Assembly (NCBI RefSeq): GCF_000455125.1
Contig: NZ_AUWR01000019.1
Span: forward strand, 1 to 54,952
Length of the DNA: 54,952 nucleotides
Source of the DNA: Mycobacterium sp. UM_WGJ
GTDB taxonomy: Bacteria > Actinomycetota > Actinomycetes > Mycobacteriales > Mycobacteriaceae
Direction of reading: 5' to 3'
Program-made: the position numbers and the translations under genes
In this document: positions 43,471 to 52,872 of the stretch, piece by piece
Position numbering within the stretch: position 1 is the first letter of the stretch
How the letters are laid out: each line of letters begins with the position of its first letter
Notes under the pieces: generated by a model
What the model saw: only the letters and a program-made list of their open reading frames with translations
What the model was told of the DNA's origin: nothing
Databases searched by the model: none

Positions 43471-43500
43471 TGAGCGGGAAAACGGTTGGCGTCGGCCCAC

Positions 43501-43506
43501 TACACT
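43501..43506 (+). promoter_or_regulatory. pdxS -10 element
   Basis: TACACT (TANNNT) lies 36 bases before the GTG of pdxS, giving a predicted leader of about 30 bases that carries AAGGAG nine bases before the start. No clear -35 was found. Confidence 0.4.
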
Positions 43507-43542
43507 GAGCGGGTATCGCAGGCCAGCAAGGAGAAGCATTCA

Positions 43543-44460
43543 GTGGACAGCGCGGCGCAGAACGGTTCGGCACCCGACGGACAAACGGGTACTGCGCGAG
43601 TAAAGCGAGGCATGGCCGAGATGCTCAAGGGCGGCGTCATCATGGACGTCGTCACCCCGGACCAGGCCCGCATCGCTGAGGCCGCCGGCGCCGTCGCGGT
43701 GATGGCACTGGAGCGGGTGCCCGCCGACATCCGTGCCCAGGGCGGGGTTTCGCGAATGAGCGACCCGGACATGATCGAGGGCATCATCGCCGCGGTCACC
43801 ATTCCGGTGATGGCCAAAGTGCGAATCGGGCACTTCGTCGAGGCGCAGATCCTGCAGAGCCTCGGAGTGGACTACATCGACGAGTCCGAGGTGCTGACTC
43901 CGGCCGACTACACCCACCACATCGACAAGTGGCAGTACACCGTGCCATTCGTGTGTGGAGCGACCAACCTGGGCGAGGCGCTGCGCCGGATCACCGAGGG
44001 TGCGGCCATGATTCGCTCCAAGGGTGAGGCCGGCACCGGTGACGTCTCCAACGCCACCACCCACATGCGGTCCATCGGTGGCGAGATTCGCCGGCTCACG
44101 TCGCTCTCCGAAGACGAATTGTTCGTCGCCGCAAAGGAACTGCAGGCGCCCTACGAGCTAGTCGCAGAGGTGGCCAAGGCCGGGAAGCTGCCGGTGACGC
44201 TGTTCACCGCGGGCGGCATCGCCACCCCGGCGGATGCCGCGATGATGATGCAGCTTGGCGCGGAGGGCGTGTTCGTCGGTTCCGGCATCTTCAAGTCCGG
44301 TGACCCCGCCGCGCGTGCGGCGGCCATCGTCAAGGCCACCACATTCTACGACGACCCCGACGTGTTGGCCCGGGTATCGCGCGGGCTGGGCGAAGCGATG
44401 GTCGGCATCAATGTGGAGGACATCGCGCAACCGCACCGGCTTGCCGAACGCGGTTGGTAG
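43543..44460 (+). CDS. pdxS: Pyridoxal 5'-phosphate synthase subunit PdxS
   Basis: A 305-aa TIM-barrel synthase that forms PLP from ribose 5-phosphate, glyceraldehyde 3-phosphate and ammonia supplied by PdxT. Seen: [18 protein letters not shown] with the active-site Asp, [17 protein letters not shown] with Schiff-base K92, the [13 protein letters not shown] phosphate loop, and [39 protein letters not shown] 43543 follows AAGGAG. Its final 22 bases (coding LAERGW-stop) are repeated at 51996-52017, so the gene's 3' end is the left border of the island. In M. tuberculosis it is directly followed by tesB2 and pdxT. Confidence 0.97.
44439..44460 (+). repeat. Left 22-bp direct repeat (pdxS 3' end, att-like)
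   Basis: GCTTGCCGAACGCGG, then T, then TGGTAG. The same sequence with C in place of T is found at 51996-52017. It encodes the last six residues and stop of PdxS. Together the copies bracket the 7.5-kb defence island. Confidence 0.85.
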
Positions 44461-44486
44461 ACGCCGCGGGGCCAAGTCCATGGACC

Positions 44487-45683
44487 TCACGTGCGTTCGA
44501 TGAACCTCCGCTGATGCGTGTCATAGGCGTAGTTGACGATATCGCCGGAGACGATCAGCTCGATGGCCTGGTTGATGACGTTGCGAGGAACCACGAACCA
44601 CTCGGAGGGGTCGTAGGGGTGGCCCTTGCGGTCGATTTGGGTCAGATCGAGGCGGACCTCGGCGAAGACACGGTGCAGCAGATTCTCCAGTGCCGAGGTT
44701 TTGAGGTTGTAGGTGCGGTAGCTGGCAACCACCTCGACCGGAGCCATCAGATACGTCGGTGACTTCTCGGCGTTGTTGATACGCCTTTCCACCGGTCCGC
44801 GGGAGAAGCCGATCTTGTGCAGGTCCGTCATCGCGGCAATCTGCGGGTCGTCGCTGAGGGACCGGAGCACATAGATGTATCCGCTCTCGACATCGGCGTC
44901 GAGCACCTCGTCCTCGGAGAGTCCGGTTCGGACGATGGCCTGTCCGTCTTGCTCGAAGAGGCGGATCGAGAGCGATTGGCGATACATCGACGACTCGGTG
45001 CCGTTCTCGAAGATCACCCGCAGGCGTTGCTTCTGCTCCGGCTTTCCGCCGACGATCATCTCCCTCGTCTCGCCGACCTCGGCGACGAACAACATCACAC
45101 CGGCCAGAACGAAGAAGCGGCCCTCGGCGACCGTGCTCAGGCCCTTGAACGGTGCAAGTGTGACTGTGCCGTCCGCGAGCTCGGCGTGCTTCATCTTGAA
45201 TAGGTTCGCGAATTGATCGAAGTCGTGGCACTTCTTGCGTTTGGCAACCGACTCCGCGGCATCCGGGTTTTTCCGCGCAGGCAGATCCGATATGTCGAGC
45301 AGGCCGGACTCGTCGCCCAGGAGTTCGAACTGATCGCCGTCAAGGAGGTCATCGATCGTCATCGGGGCCTCTGGAATCGTCAGGAGACGGAACTCGTCGA
45401 GTGGTCGGAGGGCGGCGGTCTTGTCCTCGTTGGCGAGGATCCCGTCCAGACGTGCGCCGAGTTTGCGCTCAGCGATCTCGCGGGTCGTTGAGCTGGGAGC
45501 CCGGCCGTGGATGCGCCGGAACTCCACGATTTCGTGGAACGCCCGCTCCAGCCGATCGGCAGAGGTCACCCGCGCCGGCTTCTCGGGCGCATCCAACAAG
45601 CCACCGACATCGGAGGCGAGCAGCGCGTCGATACTGGCTGGAGTGGCGAAGCCGGCGGACTGATTGTCGTTGTCGTCGCTCAT
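44487..45683 (-). CDS. GIY-YIG nuclease (T5orf172/MUG113-like) of the island
   Basis: A 398-aa protein. The C-terminal nuclease domain (about 265-345) has GYIYVLRSLSDDPQIA, LHKIGFSRGPVERRINNAE and the catalytic Glu in KTSALENLLHRVF (E333), the T5orf172-type GIY-YIG pattern. The N-terminal segment at about 44-82 (LERAFHEIVEFRRIHGRAP...) shares a GRxP-centred pattern with the C-terminus of the neighbouring helicase. The middle (150-260) is a beta-rich region of unknown role. Its ATG overlaps the helicase stop by four bases (ATGA), so the two are translationally coupled. Probably the DNA-cutting subunit of the island's system. Confidence 0.85.
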   Translation of the reverse strand: MSDDNDNQSAGFATPASIDALLASDVGGLLDAPEKPARVTSADRLERAFHEIVEFRRIHGRAPSSTTREIAERKLGARLDGILANEDKTAALRPLDEFRLLTIPEAPMTIDDLLDGDQFELLGDESGLLDISDLPARKNPDAAESVAKRKKCHDFDQFANLFKMKHAELADGTVTLAPFKGLSTVAEGRFFVLAGVMLFVAEVGETREMIVGGKPEQKQRLRVIFENGTESSMYRQSLSIRLFEQDGQAIVRTGLSEDEVLDADVESGYIYVLRSLSDDPQIAAMTDLHKIGFSRGPVERRINNAEKSPTYLMAPVEVVASYRTYNLKTSALENLLHRVFAEVRLDLTQIDRKGHPYDPSEWFVVPRNVINQAIELIVSGDIVNYAYDTHQRRFIERT

Positions 45684-47656
45684 GATTCGTCGTCCCGTTG
45701 TGCGGCGCGCTGAGCGACTGCCCGCTGCTGCTTCTGCCGCTGCAAGTACAGCAGGATCTCGGCGTGGCGCTTCTCCGTCGGGTCATCGGCGCGCACGTCG
45801 GGCTTGCGTCCGTTGACCTTGGCCCACTGCTGGATCTTCGGCCAGGCCGCCAGCGCCTCTTCCTCGGTGACCTCGACGCGGGTTGCGGTGATCGCGTCGG
45901 AGATGATCCGCAGCACCGGCGGCGTGACCGATTTGGACATCACCTCGAAGGCGCGCTGGAACGGGTTGACCGAGTCGATCAGATTGATGTTGATGTCATC
46001 GATGTTGACGAACTTCTCCGACATCCGGATGAACCGCTTATCGCCGACCTCGCGGACCTCGCCATTCTTGATCACCGAATCCACCACGACCTGCTGACGC
46101 AGTTCCTCGACCTGAGATTCGTCCAGGTCGGGGTAACGCTCGCGGATGATTTTTGGGATCAGAACCTTGTTGGTGGTCTCCGGATCGACCGAACCGGCTG
46201 CGGCCTTGGCGAAGGTGTCGTCCTGCAAGATGGTGGCCTTCAGATCGTTGAGATCGGTCTCGACGATCTGCTTGACCCGCTCCGACGACGGTTCTTTGAA
46301 GCCCTTGATCTTGATGACACCCGGAGGGGTCGGGTCCGCGTCGCCGCTGCGTTTGGTTTTGAACGTGAAGTTCTGCGCCAGCACCTGCTCCATCAGCAGC
46401 GACGCGGTGATGGCCTTGAGCATGTTGTTCACCGACACCTTCACCTCGCTCTGGGAGGCGTCGGGCTCGGCGATCAGGTTGGTGAACTGGGCGTGCTCCT
46501 TGTCGGGGCTGTCGCGGGTGACGCGGCCGATGATCTGGATGACCTCGGTCAGCGAGGCGCGGTAGCCGACCGTCAACGCGTGTTCGGCGAACGGCCAGTC
46601 GAAGCCCTCCTTGGCCATTCCGAGCGCGATGATCACATCCACGGCGTCGCGGTCTTTCGAGGCGATGGACGACAGGTAGTGCAGGGTATCGGCGCGTTTC
46701 TTCTGGTCGGTGTCATCGACCAGGTCTGCGACGTGGACGATCTTGCCGGTGTCGGCACGGCGGATGCCAATGATTCCGGTGTCGGGATCGGTGGATTCCA
46801 CGTGACCGATCGAGTCGATGATGAACCCGACCTCTTCGATCTTGTCTTTGGTGGACTCACCGGAGTTCACGTTCGGGATGTGGATGATCGTTTTCTTGTC
46901 CAGGTCGAACACCTCACCGATCGCGTCGGTGTAGCGGCCCTGATAGAAGTGGTGGCCGATGCCGAGTGAGCGCAGATGCTCGTAGCCGTTGAGCTGGTCG
47001 TAATAGTTGAAGGTGACCGGGGTAAACCGCGCTTCGTCCTCGGCGGAGAGCACCGGCACCGAGTCGCCCCGGAAGTACGAGCCGGTCATGGCAACGATGT
47101 GCACGTCAGAGCCGTTCATCACATCGCGGAGCAATGCGCCGAGCCGGCTGGCTTCGGTATCGGCGGAGACGTGGTGGAACTCGTCGATTGCGAGCGCCGT
47201 GCCGTTGAACGCATCGGGGGAGAGCCTCTCGAAAGCGAACCGCAGCGTGGCATGCGTGCAGATCAGGATCGCGTCCGGGCCGTTGAGGAACTCGATGAAA
47301 ACGCCGACCTTGCCCGCCGAAGAGCCGGGATCACACAGGTTGAGCTCCGGCTTGACGTCCCAGTCGGCGAAGAACCCGAACTTGGTCAGGTCCGTCGAGG
47401 AGAACGACGCACCGATCGACCGCTCGGGAACGGCGACGATCACCTTCTTGCGGCCCTGGTTGTAGAGCTTGTCGAGTGCCACGAACATCAGCGCGCGCGA
47501 CTTGCCGGAAGCCGGCGGGGCTTTGACCAGCAGGTGCTGGGCATTCCGCTTGGCGAACACCCTCCGCTGCATCTCCCGCATGCCCATCGCGTCGGTGTGC
47601 ACCGAATCGCCGGTGCGGGCGTAGGTGACGTCGACGATGTTCGGTTGGGCGTTCAC
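45680..47656 (-). CDS. SF2 DEAD/DEAH-box helicase of the island
   Basis: A 658-aa ATPase. Walker A is LLVKAPPASGKSRAL (G51-K52-S53), Walker B is AIDEFHH (D158-E159-F-H161), motif III-like is AMTGSY, and motif VI is QIIGRVTRDSP, giving two RecA lobes within about residues 40-400. The C-terminal region includes WPKIQQWAKVNGRKP (605-619) and a charged tail. It resembles helicase subunits of restriction systems that translocate on DNA; a nuclease motif was not found in this chain. GTG 47656 begins NAQPNIVDVTYARTG. It is coupled to the GIY-YIG gene downstream and divergent from mntA. Confidence 0.87.
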   Translation of the reverse strand: MNAQPNIVDVTYARTGDSVHTDAMGMREMQRRVFAKRNAQHLLVKAPPASGKSRALMFVALDKLYNQGRKKVIVAVPERSIGASFSSTDLTKFGFFADWDVKPELNLCDPGSSAGKVGVFIEFLNGPDAILICTHATLRFAFERLSPDAFNGTALAIDEFHHVSADTEASRLGALLRDVMNGSDVHIVAMTGSYFRGDSVPVLSAEDEARFTPVTFNYYDQLNGYEHLRSLGIGHHFYQGRYTDAIGEVFDLDKKTIIHIPNVNSGESTKDKIEEVGFIIDSIGHVESTDPDTGIIGIRRADTGKIVHVADLVDDTDQKKRADTLHYLSSIASKDRDAVDVIIALGMAKEGFDWPFAEHALTVGYRASLTEVIQIIGRVTRDSPDKEHAQFTNLIAEPDASQSEVKVSVNNMLKAITASLLMEQVLAQNFTFKTKRSGDADPTPPGVIKIKGFKEPSSERVKQIVETDLNDLKATILQDDTFAKAAAGSVDPETTNKVLIPKIIRERYPDLDESQVEELRQQVVVDSVIKNGEVREVGDKRFIRMSEKFVNIDDININLIDSVNPFQRAFEVMSKSVTPPVLRIISDAITATRVEVTEEEALAAWPKIQQWAKVNGRKPDVRADDPTEKRHAEILLYLQRQKQQRAVAQRAAQRDDES

Positions 47657-47830
47657 GTTGCGGACCCCTGGGCGTCGGTGGCTGCTGGTGGCTCATTTCT
47701 ACCGGATGGGGCAGACACCAGTTTCTGTCTCGGGTCATTGTGTCCAGGGCAGATCGACGGGTTGGGTGGTTCGCGACCGACCGACCAGGTCAGCCGTCCC
47801 AAGGTTCGTTGCCGCACGTGCGGTCGCCGG

Positions 47831-47836
47831 TAGTCT
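47831..47836 (+). promoter_or_regulatory. mntA -10 element
   Basis: TAGTCT (TANNNT) is followed by seven bases and then the mntA GTG at 47844, suggesting a leaderless or very short leader. GGAGGT in those seven bases would also serve as a ribosome site if transcription began earlier. It lies in the 187-base divergent gap with the helicase gene. Confidence 0.45.
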
Positions 47837-47843
47837 GGAGGTC

Positions 47844-48149
47844 GTGATCGACTTAGCTGGGGCAGACCACGAAGCGCTGGTGCGTGCGTGCCGGCAGTGC
47901 GGTGTCGCGCGGCTACGTGTGTTTGGCTCGGCGGTGACGAGTGAATTCGATCCTGAGACAAGCGATATCGACTTCCTGGTGGACTTTGCCGCCGATGCGC
48001 CGAAGGGAATTGCCCCGTTCCTCGCGCTGCAAGAGGAGCTGCGGCGCATCTTCGGCCGCAACGTGGACCTGGTCGAGGCAAATGCCGTCCGGAACCCGTT
48101 CTTCGCCCGGCGTGCGTTCGGCGAGGCTGTGGACGTGTATGCGGCCTGA
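47844..48149 (+). CDS. mntA: MntA-type nucleotidyltransferase antitoxin
   Basis: A 101-aa minimal nucleotidyltransferase. The active site reads FGSAVTSEFDPETSDIDFLVDF, i.e. GSX11DXD, with NVDLVEANAVRNPFF downstream supplying the third acidic region. In HepT-MntA modules, MntA neutralises the toxin by adding AMP to a tyrosine next to the HEPN motif. GTG 47844 was chosen for its leaderless-type promoter and typical length. It overlaps hepT by 11 bases. The pair is on the opposite strand to the restriction genes flanking it. Confidence 0.88.
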   Translation: MIDLAGADHEALVRACRQCGVARLRVFGSAVTSEFDPETSDIDFLVDFAADAPKGIAPFLALQEELRRIFGRNVDLVEANAVRNPFFARRAFGEAVDVYAA

Positions 48150-48489
48150 GTCCGCGGCCCTCATCTGGGACGCGCTCGATGCCGCCAAGTCGATAAGCAG
48201 CTTCATTGAGGGCATATCGCTGGACGCGTACCGGAGCGACTTGCTGCGCCGCCGCGCGGTGGAGCGGGGATTCGAGATCGTCGGTGAAGCGCTCGGAAAG
48301 CTGCGTCAGATCGATCCGGAGACAACCGGGCGCGTGCCTGGCCTGGCCAACGCGGTGGGGTTGCGGAACGTGCTGATCCACGGATATGCCGAGATTGTTG
48401 ACGAGCGCATCTATGACACCGCCGTCGCGGATGTTCCTGGGTTGATCGAGGTGCTTACCTCGTTGATGGCTGAGGCTGGAGAACCGTAG
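48139..48489 (+). CDS. hepT: HepT-type HEPN (DUF86) ribonuclease toxin
   Basis: A 116-aa all-helical HEPN protein. The RX4HXY motif is intact as RNVLIHGY in NAVGLRNVLIHGYAEIVDERIYDTA. Arg and His are the RNase residues, and the Tyr is the residue adenylylated by MntA in characterised pairs. The N-terminal half (IWDALDAAKSISSFIEGISLDAY; VERGFEIVGEALGKL) is typical DUF86. ATG 48139 overlaps mntA by 11 bases. The stop is five bases from the convergent methyltransferase stop. Confidence 0.9.
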   Translation: MRPESAALIWDALDAAKSISSFIEGISLDAYRSDLLRRRAVERGFEIVGEALGKLRQIDPETTGRVPGLANAVGLRNVLIHGYAEIVDERIYDTAVADVPGLIEVLTSLMAEAGEP

Positions 48490-48494
48490 ATGGA

Positions 48495-51176
48495 TCATCC
48501 TTTGGCTTCGGCCGCCGTCATCGCCTCATACATGGCGAACAAGTCCGACAGGCGCTGTTCGTCGGTCTCGTAGCCGCGCTTGGAGTAGATGGAGTCGACC
48601 AGAGCGTCCACTTCCGCGTGGGCCCGGCGCAGATCGTCGGGCATCAGGTCGGGGTCGTACAGCTCGGCCAGCGTCTTTTCGCAGTGGTATTCGCGCACGT
48701 CCAGCACCCGCAGCGCGGTGACGGCGAGCTTCTCCTTGGTGTCGTCGGAGAGTGGAGGGACTGGGAAGTTGTTGTAGACGATCGTGTTGGAGTATTGATA
48801 GTTGATACGCATTCGTCCAGAAACTGCTTTGACCCACACCATATGCATATTTGAAGTCAGCAGGGAAAATAACCAGGGATCGGCCCCGTAGATCGCGAAT
48901 CCCTTGTTGGAGATCACGGTGTCGGGGCCAAGGTAGTCAATCGGAATGTATTTTCGCAGGCCAGACGAGATGCTCGGGACGATGATCGAATCCGTCGGCT
49001 TGTAGCTGATTTGGACAAACCGGTGGGGTTCTGCGGCATACGCCGCTGTGCTTTCCGCTTTGCTCATAGCCCGTTCGGCAGCTACTCGATCCAACCTGGA
49101 TGAGATCGAGGGAATCGAACGTGCGAGCGTTGCGGAGTCGTCGGGTATCCAGAGACAATACCGCTCGCCATCATTGATTGCCTCGGCTGATCCCATGTAG
49201 CGCTTGATGAATTCGCTGCTGCGTTGATCCTCCCGAATCATCTGGTGGCGCTCGGCCGGCGTCAGGGTAAGCCAGCCACCATCGCGAGGCATCGAGCCGA
49301 ATACCATCTCTGGGCGCGGTGCCCCAAGGGGGGTCTTGCGTCGCTCGATTATTATATTGGCACCGTCGGCAAGGTAGCCGTTGATGTTGCTTGCCGTGAT
49401 TTGAAGGTCGTTTGAGTATAAATATTTTGGGCTCGATCGCGTTACCCGCAACCCAATGACAGCAACGGTCACGTCAGCATTTTTCTTCGCGTTGTTGTCC
49501 CACTGGAATCCGGGGTATGCGAACCCAATTTCGATTTCCTTGGAGAAGATCATGGGGAACATCAACCCCACGTGTTCACCTTGAGTCACCGTCTTAGTGG
49601 TAACGAATGCAAGCTCAGCTTGCGTTCCTTCGATGTAGTCGGCCCCCTTGATAAACCACAGTGCGATGTAGTTGAGGTTTTTCGAGTGCGGCCTCGCCCC
49701 GAATGCAAAGGCGTAATCTTCCTTCTGCTCAGGTGTCTGCCGCTTGGCGCCATAGTAGGGCGGATTCCCAATCAGATAGATCTCACCACCGTCGTTGGGG
49801 CACACGGTATTCCAGTCGATCCGGGTGGCGTTACCCTGGCGGATCTGCCCGGTCTCCTTGAGTGGGATCAGCGGGATGTCCTCGCCGAACTTGGCTTTGA
49901 ACTCCACATTCATCTGGTGCTTGGCGATCCACAGCGAGAGGATCGCCACCTCGACAGCGAAGTCGTCGATCTCGATGCCGTAGAAGTTCTCGATGTTGAT
50001 CCGGGAGCCCAGTAGGTGGCCCTGGTGCGAGCCTCGCAGCTCGGCGAGGCGCTCCAGGATGGCGTGCTCGAGCTTGCGCAACTCTTTGTAGGCGATGACC
50101 AGGAAATTGCCCGAGCCACAGGCCGGGTCGAACACCTTGATCGCGGCGATCCGCGACAGCAGCCCCTCCAATTTCTTCTCGCTGTCAAAGCCGGCATCGA
50201 GTTCCTCTTTGAGGCGATCGAGGAACAGCGGCTCGATGGTCTTGAGGATGTTGGGCACCGAGGTGTAGTGCTGGCCCAGGTCTGATCGCGCGCCGGGGGT
50301 GACGATCGCCTGAAACATCGAACCGAAGATGTCGGGGTTGATCTCCCGCCAGATCAACGTCCCGGATTCGATGAGCAGTTCGCGGGCCTTCTTGGTGAAC
50401 GTCGGTACCGCATGCTCGGCCGAGACGGCGAACAACCGGCCGTTGACGTACGGGAACCCGGCCAGGTGCGTGGGCTTGTGCGCGGGATCTTCGGTGTCGA
50501 GTGCGGCGAAGAGATCGGTGAGGAAATCCGCCACATCGGAGCCATCAACCTGAGTGTGAGAGCCGACGGCGTTGGTGAACTGGTTCTCAGCGAATATGCC
50601 GGTGTCTTCGGCAAAGAAGCAGAACAACAGCCGGGTGAAGAAGAGATTGAGCGCGTGGCGCCCGTTCGGTTGGTGCAGCAGGCCGGGGTTCGCGCCGAGC
50701 AACTCGTCGAACAGCTTGCCCATCCGCTCGGCGGCCTTGACGTCGGCGTGCGCCTCGGCGACGTACTGCGCCTTCTCCATCCCGGCCCAGGGCAGGAAGA
50801 AGGTGAAGTGCTGGTCGATGTCGCGGATCGGGATGATCAGGTTCTCGCCGGTCTTGGTGTCGATGGCGAGCAACTCGGTGTAGTCGGTGACGATAACGAA
50901 CCGTGTGTTGTAGCGCACCACCGTCGGTGAGGTCCTCAGCGCGTCGATCACCGCCAGCGGATCGCCGGTCGTCTCTTTGAAGTAGACGACGTTCTTCTGC
51001 GCCACTTCGGTTTCCGGATTGTCGGCGACATTGAGCGAGCCGTTGCGCAGCCGGGTGACATTGCCCTGCGGCTTCCCGTATGCCAGCAGCAGGTCGAAGA
51101 TGAACTCGCGGTCGTAGGATTCCCGGCCCCCAAGCGGTGCGACCCGCTCCTCAACCGCCTTCAGATTGAGTCTCAC
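48495..51176 (-). CDS. Large N6-adenine DNA methyltransferase with MmeI-like core
   Basis: An 893-aa protein. The N-terminal domain (about 1-130: REFIFDLLLAYGKPQGNVTRL, RFVIVTDYTELLAIDTK) is unlike the MmeI nuclease I know, and I could not identify a convincing PD-(D/E)xK set. A helical spacer (FFTRLLFCFFAEDTGIF) follows. The methyltransferase core has GQHYTSVPNI, motif I FDPACGSGNF (349-358) and motif IV NPPY (471-474). A target-recognition region at about 590-790 precedes a conserved C-terminus (DLMPDDLRRAHAEVDALVDSIY). It probably modifies host DNA and sets specificity. GTG 51176 lacks a good ribosome site. The recognition region is A+T-richer than the rest. Confidence 0.88.
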   Translation of the reverse strand: MRLNLKAVEERVAPLGGRESYDREFIFDLLLAYGKPQGNVTRLRNGSLNVADNPETEVAQKNVVYFKETTGDPLAVIDALRTSPTVVRYNTRFVIVTDYTELLAIDTKTGENLIIPIRDIDQHFTFFLPWAGMEKAQYVAEAHADVKAAERMGKLFDELLGANPGLLHQPNGRHALNLFFTRLLFCFFAEDTGIFAENQFTNAVGSHTQVDGSDVADFLTDLFAALDTEDPAHKPTHLAGFPYVNGRLFAVSAEHAVPTFTKKARELLIESGTLIWREINPDIFGSMFQAIVTPGARSDLGQHYTSVPNILKTIEPLFLDRLKEELDAGFDSEKKLEGLLSRIAAIKVFDPACGSGNFLVIAYKELRKLEHAILERLAELRGSHQGHLLGSRINIENFYGIEIDDFAVEVAILSLWIAKHQMNVEFKAKFGEDIPLIPLKETGQIRQGNATRIDWNTVCPNDGGEIYLIGNPPYYGAKRQTPEQKEDYAFAFGARPHSKNLNYIALWFIKGADYIEGTQAELAFVTTKTVTQGEHVGLMFPMIFSKEIEIGFAYPGFQWDNNAKKNADVTVAVIGLRVTRSSPKYLYSNDLQITASNINGYLADGANIIIERRKTPLGAPRPEMVFGSMPRDGGWLTLTPAERHQMIREDQRSSEFIKRYMGSAEAINDGERYCLWIPDDSATLARSIPSISSRLDRVAAERAMSKAESTAAYAAEPHRFVQISYKPTDSIIVPSISSGLRKYIPIDYLGPDTVISNKGFAIYGADPWLFSLLTSNMHMVWVKAVSGRMRINYQYSNTIVYNNFPVPPLSDDTKEKLAVTALRVLDVREYHCEKTLAELYDPDLMPDDLRRAHAEVDALVDSIYSKRGYETDEQRLSDLFAMYEAMTAAEAKG

Positions 51177-51235: not shown

Positions 51236-51637
51236 TTATGGCTGTTCGACGGGATCGGTCACCCGCAAGCCCAGGTGCTCGGCAACCTCTTTCATGGTGG
51301 TGTCGTGCGTCGCCACGGTGACAACCTCGCCGATCAGTAGGGCGGTCGCCAGGTGCAGGGCGTCGGGGGTTCTGATGTGGCGTTCGATCGACTCAGCGAC
51401 GGTGTGTGTCTCCCGGGTGATGTCCAGCATCCCGACACGGTCCAGCAGCGGTGCCGCGTCGGAGAGCGGACGGTCGTCGCGGCGCAGCGTGCGAACCACC
51501 TCGGTGCGAAGGAGTCTGGAGGACAGAAACGTCGTCGCTGGCGTCCGCATCCAGGATTGGAGGTGCTCGCGTTCGGGAACGGCGAGGATGGTGCGCAGCG
51601 CCACCGAGGTGTCTAGGTAGACCAGGGTTGGCGCCAC
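51236..51637 (-). CDS. vapC: PIN-domain (VapC-type) ribonuclease toxin
   Basis: A 133-aa PIN protein. Acidic active-site residues are in LVYLDTSVALRTIL (D9), LLRTEVVRTLRR (Glu), RTPDALHLATALL (Asp) and VATHDTTMKEVAEHLG (Asp). VapC toxins usually cleave tRNA or rRNA. Its start lies three bases from the antitoxin stop, on the same strand. It is at the right edge of the island, 59 bases upstream of the methyltransferase gene. Confidence 0.9.
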   Translation of the reverse strand: MAPTLVYLDTSVALRTILAVPEREHLQSWMRTPATTFLSSRLLRTEVVRTLRRDDRPLSDAAPLLDRVGMLDITRETHTVAESIERHIRTPDALHLATALLIGEVVTVATHDTTMKEVAEHLGLRVTDPVEQP

Positions 51638-51640
51638 GAT

Positions 51641-51919
51641 TCAGTGATCCCCGCGCATCTCATCGAGTAACGCGTCGACCTGACCGCCGCTGTAGGACGG
51701 TCCGCCCGGGGCACTCGGCCAGGGTGCGGGTTTGGCGGCGGGTGGGGTGTAGCGACCCTCGCGCTCCAGGCGCGCCAGCGTGGAATCTTGAGCGCGGACA
51801 GCGCTCACCCGCCAGCGCGGCCTACCCCGCTCGGTCACCACGAGGTCGTCCGTTTCTGTGACTTGATCGAGCACCGCAGCGGTCCGCTGATTGAGCTCTC
51901 GTTTGGTAACTGTCGGCAC
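51641..51919 (-). CDS. vapB: Phd/YefM-type antitoxin partner of the PIN toxin
   Basis: A 92-aa protein. The N-terminal DNA-binding region TKRELNQRTAAVLDQVTETD-DLVVTERGRPRWRV is the Phd/YefM antitoxin pattern. The disordered Pro/Ala/Ser-rich C-terminus (about 55-92) would wrap the toxin. The GTG start at 51919 lies six bases behind TACACT (51931-51926), indicating a leaderless autoregulated promoter. Pairing a Phd-type antitoxin with a PIN toxin is common in actinobacteria. Confidence 0.88.
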   Translation of the reverse strand: MPTVTKRELNQRTAAVLDQVTETDDLVVTERGRPRWRVSAVRAQDSTLARLEREGRYTPPAAKPAPWPSAPGGPSYSGGQVDALLDEMRGDH

Positions 51920-51995: not shown

Positions 51996-52017
51996 GCTTG
52001 CCGAACGCGGCTGGTAG
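51996..52017 (+). repeat. Right 22-bp direct repeat (second copy of pdxS 3' end)
   Basis: GCTTGCCGAACGCGG, then C, then TGGTAG: 21 of 22 bases match the pdxS end at 44439-44460. The one difference is synonymous (GGT/GGC Gly), so this copy also codes LAERGW-stop but has no pdxS body upstream. It ends nine bases before the tesB GTG, the close spacing expected of an uninterrupted pdxS-tesB junction. It marks the right border of the island and is probably the original chromosomal end of pdxS. Confidence 0.85.
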
Positions 52018-52026
52018 AGCTTCTTC

Positions 52027-52872
52027 GTGGCGATCGAAGAGATCCTCGATCTGGAACAACTCGAGGTCAACATCTACCGCGGGAGTGTGTTCAGCCCGCT
52101 CTCTGCGGACAACCAGCGCACCTTCGGCGGACACGTCGCCGGCCAGGCATTGGTGTCCGCGGTGCGCACCGTGGATCCGCGTTACCGGGTCCATTCGCTG
52201 CACGGATACTTTCTGCGTCCCGGAGATGCCAAGGCGCCCACGGTGTTCACCGTGGAGCGGGTCCGCGACGGCGGCTCGTTCTGCACGCGGCGTGTCAACG
52301 CCGTTCAGCACGGCGAAACCATCTTCAACATGTCGGCCTCGTTCCAGACCGAGCAACAGGGCATTGAGCACCAAGATGTGATGCCCGATGCCCCCGACCC
52401 CAAGGACCTGCCCGACATCGCTGCGATGAAGGCCTTCGACGACGAAGGCTTCAAAGCGTTCGCCGAGTGGGATCTGCGCCGGGTGCCGCGTGAGCAGTTG
52501 CCGCACATGCCGGGCAAGGTTGCCGAGCAGCAGGTCTGGTTCCGCCACCGCGACCGGCTGCCCGACGATCCGGTGCTGCACATCTGCGCGCTGGCCTACA
52601 TGAGTGACCTGACCCTGCTGGGCACCTCCTGGGCGATCCACCCGAGTGAGCGGGACCACTTGCAGGTGGCGTCGCTCGATCACGCGATGTGGTTCATGCG
52701 CCCCTTCCGAGCCGACGAATGGCTGCTCTATGACCAGTCATCGCCTTCGGCGGGCGCCGGCCGGGCGCTGACCCAGGGCAAGATCTACAACCGATCCGGG
52801 GACATGGTGGCCGCGGTCATGCAGGAGGGGCTGACCCGCTATCCGTCCGGATTTCAGCCGACGGGCCAGTGA
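52027..52872 (+). CDS. tesB: Acyl-CoA thioesterase II
   Basis: A 281-aa double-hotdog thioesterase that hydrolyses acyl-CoA. Characteristic stretches: [51 protein letters not shown] in the first hotdog, and [39 protein letters not shown] in the second, with the Asp/Gln/Thr active-site network. The length matches TesB (about 285). The GTG lies nine bases after the second pdxS-end copy. In M. tuberculosis it is co-transcribed between pdxS and pdxT; here the island has separated it from the pdxS promoter. The stop overlaps pdxT by four bases. Confidence 0.94.

Follow-up and report, generated by a model that had tools for sequence, protein, structure and literature searches.

The locus examined here raises the question of what a DNA methyltransferase (MTase) resembling the single-chain enzyme MmeI, but without its nuclease motif, would do beside the genes of a helicase and a separate nuclease. 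The window analysed is the 54,952-nucleotide stretch of Mycobacterium sp. UM_WGJ contig NZ_AUWR01000019.1 (RefSeq assembly GCF_000455125.1), in which an earlier note, made from the sequence alone, had proposed that three such genes form a modification-restriction system. What is seen directly is which genes are present and in what order, that the motifs of the helicase and the GIY-YIG protein are intact, that the MTase has lost its nuclease residues, and that the three genes co-occur almost constantly and diverge in a correlated way. Reading these features at the sequence level, we consider it probable that the trio is a helicase-dependent restriction-modification (R-M) system of the DnmA-YeeB-YeeC type with an MmeI-type recognition subunit.

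All three genes lie on the minus strand. The MmeI-family adenine MTase (48495..51176; 893 residues) lacks the N-terminal nuclease motif of MmeI, the YeeB-like superfamily 2 (SF2) helicase (45680..47656) has 658 residues, and the YeeC-like GIY-YIG nuclease of the T5orf172/MUG113 kind (44487..45683; 398 residues) carries its GIY-YIG domain in the last third. Open reading frame (ORF) calling and Pfam confirmed the three genes, their coordinates, the shared strand and the 4-bp overlap of the helicase and GIY-YIG genes (45680-45683) as given in the earlier note, and 838 bp separate the MTase from the helicase. Profile searches, which that note had called for, returned MmeI-family, DEAD and MUG113/T5orf172 matches above cut-off. 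The MTase matched all five Pfam MmeI domains above cut-off (MmeI_N, MmeI_hel, MmeI_Mtase, MmeI_TRD and MmeI_C), in one chain as in the Type IIL enzyme MmeI (PDB 5hr4), to which phmmer aligned residues 90-888 with an E-value of 2.5e-168. In the helicase DEAD was above cut-off, while Helicase_C and ResIII fell below theirs (ResIII, 19.2 bits against 22.5); MUG113 and T5orf172 were both above cut-off in the GIY-YIG protein. Among PDB sequences, phmmer found no credible relative of either the helicase or the GIY-YIG protein. The PADLOC model REase_MTase_IIG (PDLC03598) gave nearly full-length matches to the MTase of the window (939 bits) and to two further trio MTases (994 and 998 bits), so that the MTase is labelled Type IIG, and the helicase and nuclease received weak partial matches only. 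The PDLC03598 label implies a nuclease-MTase fusion, whereas the trio MTases are without conserved nuclease residues.

Co-occurrence of the three genes was surveyed by searching for the helicase in one genome per species across 84,980 species. The best 80 of at least 577 confirmed stretches were kept, a sample biased towards close relatives, and the window's own locus (L001) was dropped from the counts. At 79 of these 80 loci a GIY-YIG gene lies on the same strand no more than 200 bp downstream of the helicase; the lone exception (L066) ends at a contig end and has a weak partial GIY-YIG match. Wherever 7 kb or more of DNA was available upstream, the MTase gene was there, again on the same strand (51 of 51 loci). 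A more divergent set from IMG/VR (43 loci, identity down to 45%) gave 39 of 42 for the GIY-YIG gene and 29 of 29, where there was enough DNA, for the MTase, and the three loci without a GIY-YIG gene (L256, L288 and L289) all have shortened helicase matches. A neighbourhood survey of this kind had been proposed in the earlier note, and its outcome upholds the view that the three genes are one unit. The three proteins also diverge together, with pairwise correlations of 0.88-0.92 over 59 sets and of 0.79-0.83 over the 40 sets left when the closest group is removed; in neither case did any of 2000 permutations reach these values. Over the same 59 sets, mean identity is 0.68 for the helicase, 0.52 for the MTase and 0.44 for the nuclease.

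The absence of nuclease residues from the MTase N-terminus, also claimed earlier, was borne out by alignment. In an alignment of 62 trio MTases, residues 10 to 91 include no position at which Asp, Glu or Lys reaches 90% conservation; unlike in Type IIL MmeI, the N-terminal D...E-x-K is not conserved and the nuclease is a separate protein. Against a simple reading of this loss, a loose nuclease pattern occurs in 10 of the 62 trio MTases, at scattered positions, and in 1 of 28 MTases of the IMG/VR set. Of 19 distinct solitary MmeI relatives from the same phylum that could be read, 16 have the motif D-x(8-12)-E-x-K, for example DVWIPDAGVLIEQK; the other three are two proteins with another N-terminus (L083 and L084) and one that starts at the locus edge (L100). 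This solitary set comprised ORFs of at least 700 residues with E-values of 1e-20 or lower at loci L083-L121; the window's MTase (L092) was left out, as were shorter or split ORFs, and L119 and L121 duplicate L111 and L112. We looked for the helicase in 22 genomes that have hits of the solitary MTase type, namely all but one (G119) of the 21 other MTase-hit genomes, together with G035 and G047. It was found in none of them; 14 of the 22 have a relative that bears the motif, and the window's own genome matched as positive control. The presence of the motif in the solitary relatives, together with the absence of the helicase from these 22 genomes, makes a built-in nuclease and the helicase/GIY-YIG pair mutually exclusive in this sample. 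The proposal that cutting was moved to the helicase and GIY-YIG pair stands to the extent that the pair takes the place of the nuclease built into solitary MmeI relatives; restriction itself is a step that we infer.

The motifs of the two partner proteins are intact. In the helicase, PPASGKS, DEFH, TGS and QIIGR.TRD are invariant in 81 of 81 sequences, and in the GIY-YIG protein the same holds for Y271, R301, N326, E333 and H337 in 78 of 78; we take these positions to correspond to those that are catalytic in enzymes of the I-TevI type. The helicase C-terminus and the GIY-YIG N-terminus share a similar helical segment, roughly F.EI..F....GR.P, which HHalign matched over 37 columns with a probability of 94%; the best of 100 column shuffles reached 10%. 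When 51 segments of the three alignments were compared, only the two overlapping the GIY-YIG N-terminus scored well (94% and 85%), and the next reached 15%. This small domain may serve both proteins for docking or for DNA contact. A fold search with the GIY-YIG protein model (mean predicted local distance difference test score, pLDDT, 82) found no match in the PDB at an E-value of 0.001 or lower, and its best weak matches include the SH3/KOW-like barrels of EF-P and eIF5A.

The trio had been put forward as a new kind of system, which did not hold, since passages of two reports (PMC7261158, PMC9973331) describe the same trio around Bacillus subtilis YeeA/DnmA. In these passages DnmA (YeeA) is an MmeI homologue without the nuclease motif that methylates GACGAG, and its gene adjoins those of the helicase YeeB and the T5orf172 protein YeeC; Morgan et al. 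2009 are credited there with first noting the trio and a possible Type I-like system. The conserved neighbourhood of the trio is surveyed in PMC9973331. Our B. subtilis control genome matched both marker families, MmeI_Mtase and T5orf172, consistent with the DnmA-YeeB-YeeC kind. By its domains, gene order and the published descriptions, the window trio fits membership of that kind, with an MmeI-like MTase without nuclease motif followed by an SF2 helicase and then a T5orf172/GIY-YIG protein. It differs from the B. subtilis cluster in having an MntA-HepT-like pair in the slot between MTase and helicase and in its location, an island of an actinobacterial genome at the pdxS 3' end. YeeB and YeeC of B. 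subtilis are reported in PMC9973331 to be without several C-terminal stretches. A search of the open-licence literature found no system name for the trio.

The trio was also compared with better-known systems. Pfam was run on seven island ORFs, among which there was no match to HsdS or HSDR_N, no PglZ-type gene, and no DrmB (DUF1998) or PLD gene; for these seven ORFs, the absence of HsdS, PglZ, DUF1998 and PLD stated in the earlier note holds. The trio is thereby unlike bacteriophage exclusion (BREX) systems, which would show PglZ, and unlike the defence island system associated with restriction-modification (DISARM), which would show the DrmB and PLD genes. It resembles Type I R-M (HsdM-HsdS-HsdR) in having separate modification and motor genes and in some accessory families that also occur near HsdR, and departs from it in that recognition lies in the MTase, the nuclease is of the GIY-YIG kind and HsdS and HSDR_N are missing. 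Type III and Type ISP R-M systems modify one strand and use a helicase, and by analogy the trio is expected to do the same; unlike them, it has a ResIII match below the Pfam cut-off, three separate genes and a GIY-YIG nuclease.

The mechanism that the earlier note had outlined for the trio is reasonable. Judging from its family, the MmeI-like subunit would recognize a short asymmetric site through its target recognition domain and methylate an adenine on one strand. On unmodified DNA it would recruit or license the SF2 helicase, which would move or signal along the DNA using ATP, and the GIY-YIG protein, held by the helicase, would cut. Because the site would be marked on one strand only, cutting would be expected to depend on a pair of unmodified sites in opposite orientation, as is the case for Type III and Type ISP enzymes.

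The slot between the MTase and the helicase adds a further element. In the window it holds two ORFs on the opposite strand (47625-48489), one for an MntA-like nucleotidyltransferase (47625..48149, plus strand; Pfam NTP_transf_2 and PADLOC PDC-S09, domain at residues 87-169) and one for a HepT-like HEPN ribonuclease (47941..48489, plus strand; Pfam HepT-like, domain at residues 79-173), the true starts of both genes probably lying inside their ORFs. Both proteins are above the Pfam cut-off but below that of the NCBIfam equivalogs (33 bits for MntA_antitoxin and 31 bits for HepT_toxin, each against a cut-off of 60), and the pair is therefore termed MntA-HepT-like. In 20 actinobacterial relatives (L002-L020 and L022) the MTase and helicase genes overlap by 4 bp without any insert, which suggests that the insert of the window is a local addition. 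We rejected the idea that the MntA-HepT-like pair is common slot cargo, as tblastn found neither protein in the 80 relatives; among 60 control regions there was one weak HEPN match (E-value 1.6e-4), in an HsdR region (L198). On the other side of the MTase are minus-strand genes for a toxin-like PIN-domain protein (51236..51637; Pfam) and a Phd/YefM-like antitoxin (51641..51919; NCBIfam phd_fam above cut-off, Pfam PhdYeFM_antitox below).

Elsewhere the slot is often filled with other genes. More than 150 bp separate MTase and helicase at 25 of 68 loci holding both, a count that omits the locus with the MTase downstream (L068). By Pfam or BLAST cluster, the contents are of the Schlafen AlbA_2/HATPase_c_4 type at nine loci, RhuM at four, Bro-N at three, Doc-like pairs at three and Fic at two, with AAA_13, HigBA, Abi_C, DUF1016 and others as single cases; Pfam was applied to 30 of the 47 slot ORFs of at least 90 residues, and the remainder were assigned by BLAST cluster or left unnamed. 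The AAA_13 protein, in the slot at L050:5787-7967, presumably belongs to the family of the PrrC/RloC anticodon nucleases. Homologues of the slot families occur in 16 of 40 HsdR-containing regions from trio-carrying genomes, regions defined by HsdR and not by a complete hsdM-hsdS-hsdR, and in none of 20 arbitrary regions, which came from 12 of the same genomes at hand-picked coordinates and were no random draw. Slot families were found at 24 loci in 52.7 kb of slot against 4 loci in 888 kb of flank. That comparison is partly circular, the slots themselves having served to define the families, which is not so for the 40 HsdR regions, the 20 arbitrary regions and 6 of 11 loci without MTase. A trio (L058) of Galbibacter orientalis has an HsdR gene (L198) about 9 kb away, and the HsdR region, which begins where the trio locus ends, is without a slot-family match. 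Neighbours of this sort are known to serve a purpose beside Type I enzymes: according to PMC2610378, PrrC is kept silent by a Type I enzyme linked to it and is switched on by an anti-restriction factor of a phage. The slot families near HsdR support, and do not prove, a Type I-like organization of the trio. Tentatively, and with more doubt than conviction, we suggest a further form of ATP-dependent restriction, in which an MmeI-type enzyme that has lost its nuclease would work with a helicase and a GIY-YIG nuclease, the latter two being joined to each other or bound to DNA by the duplicated small domain, with a Type I-like interchangeable slot for back-up suicide genes. The MntA-HepT-like pair of the window would then act when restriction is blocked. 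This pair in the slot, the shared domain and the island at the pdxS end are new details, our search for prior reports having been limited to Type I accessory genes.

Several points weigh against restriction by the trio. Under the conditions used, the B. subtilis cluster did not restrict plasmid uptake in PMC7261158, and in PMC9973331 it gave no protection against three phages and its motif was not depleted in phage genomes. The co-occurrence counts are equally compatible with a defence that does not cut, the correlated divergence lacks an unrelated-gene control, and the parallel between slot and HsdR regions may reflect general clustering in defence islands, a control with non-Type-I defence islands being lacking. 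The helicase model is also poor (pLDDT 69), and its fold matches mix EcoR124I HsdR with ordinary DEAD-box helicases. In favour of restriction, deletions in a Vibrio crassostreae copy are reported in PMC9973331 to increase sensitivity to some phages. The same paper holds that any phage effect must differ from canonical R-M as the B. subtilis motif is undepleted in phages. Such a view would suit a BREX-like defence in which the MTase marks self and the helicase and GIY-YIG protein halt or process the replicating DNA of a phage with no cut at the recognition site, and the window MTase is distantly similar to the PglX and DrmMI models in the PADLOC profile search. The invariant GIY-YIG active site (78 of 78) points instead to DNA cleavage and the seven island ORFs scanned include no PglZ-type gene, and we regard this explanation as unlikely.

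Less likely again is an orphan MTase engaged in regulatory methylation beside decaying helicase and GIY-YIG genes as relics of restriction, as was proposed for B. subtilis. The B. subtilis results in the same passages (PMC7261158, PMC9973331) favour it, as does the rarity of the island in the genus (1 of 118 genomes and a 37-residue remnant in another). In the window, however, all three ORFs are open with conserved motifs, and the helicase and nuclease motifs are conserved across distant loci, unlike what decay would leave. Comparable helicase-nuclease pairs exist, and the pair here could attack foreign modified DNA in a Type IV-like manner with the MTase as a separate passenger; that the MTase is upstream wherever there was enough DNA (51 of 51 loci in one set, 29 of 29 in the other), and that the three proteins diverge together, renders this improbable. 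The toxin-antitoxin-like genes beside and between the trio genes might even suggest chance neighbours in a defence island, an idea contradicted by the co-occurrence counts, which only a biased sample could save and to which we give almost no credence.

As to how the trio came to this genome, the claim that it lies in an island is supported by a dip in guanine-plus-cytosine content (0.58-0.64 in most 2-kb steps of the island against about 0.65-0.71 around it) and by absence from relatives. The island is bordered by 23-bp direct repeats, the left (44439..44461) at the 3' end of pdxS and the right (51996..52018) just before tesB, which are identical at 22 of 23 positions with a 14-bp exact core. 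Both flanking genes are on the plus strand, pdxS at 43486..44460 (Pfam SOR_SNZ) and the tesB-like acyl-CoA thioesterase gene at 52027..52872 (Pfam). The pdxS end was searched in 118 congeners and matched in 115; in all 29 best-matching relatives examined the site is empty, with tesB within about 50 bp after pdxS and no island match. The right repeat has the base seen in six relatives compared, and the left copy, the current pdxS end, differs from it by one base. Repeats and empty sites appear to be the trace of site-specific integration at the pdxS 3' end, and the island would have entered there by means of a recombinase; none was found among the seven island ORFs scanned. Of the 118 congeners, the window's own genome is the one in which the helicase was found; gene order in this genus is reminiscent of mycobacteria. 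A 37-residue helicase remnant, 84% identical, is present in another congener (L152; G012:C2:7856-7966).

Beyond this genome, the gene order of the trio is kept in very different microbes. The cluster occurs in many phyla of bacteria and in at least one metagenome-assembled genome (MAG) from the archaea, that of a member of the Methanosarcinaceae with the full trio (L046:7157-12888). A Candidatus Saccharibacteria MAG has a trio (L021:7213-13098) whose helicase is 73% identical to that of the window, against at most 65% in the other non-actinobacterial loci listed. Saccharibacteria live on Actinobacteria, and either transfer or contamination of the MAG is possible. The helicase matched 264 plasmid records, with at least 80% of its length covered in 153, and among 50,697 phage records there were two partial helicase matches only. 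One Escherichia coli plasmid has the trio annotated under generic names; near copies of the trio on that plasmid were found in 4 of 5426 complete E. coli genomes (over at least 80% in 3 of them), distant trios being outside the scope of that search.

The trio separates recognition, motor and cutter into three genes. It is widespread, and its helicase has matches on plasmids, yet no name for the system came to light in our searches, and in a defence database its MTase goes under the label of a fused Type IIG enzyme. With the trio one can examine whether decay of the B. subtilis copy accounts for the negative result there, and the domain shared by helicase and nuclease, together with the accessory slot, offers concrete points at which its function may be tested.

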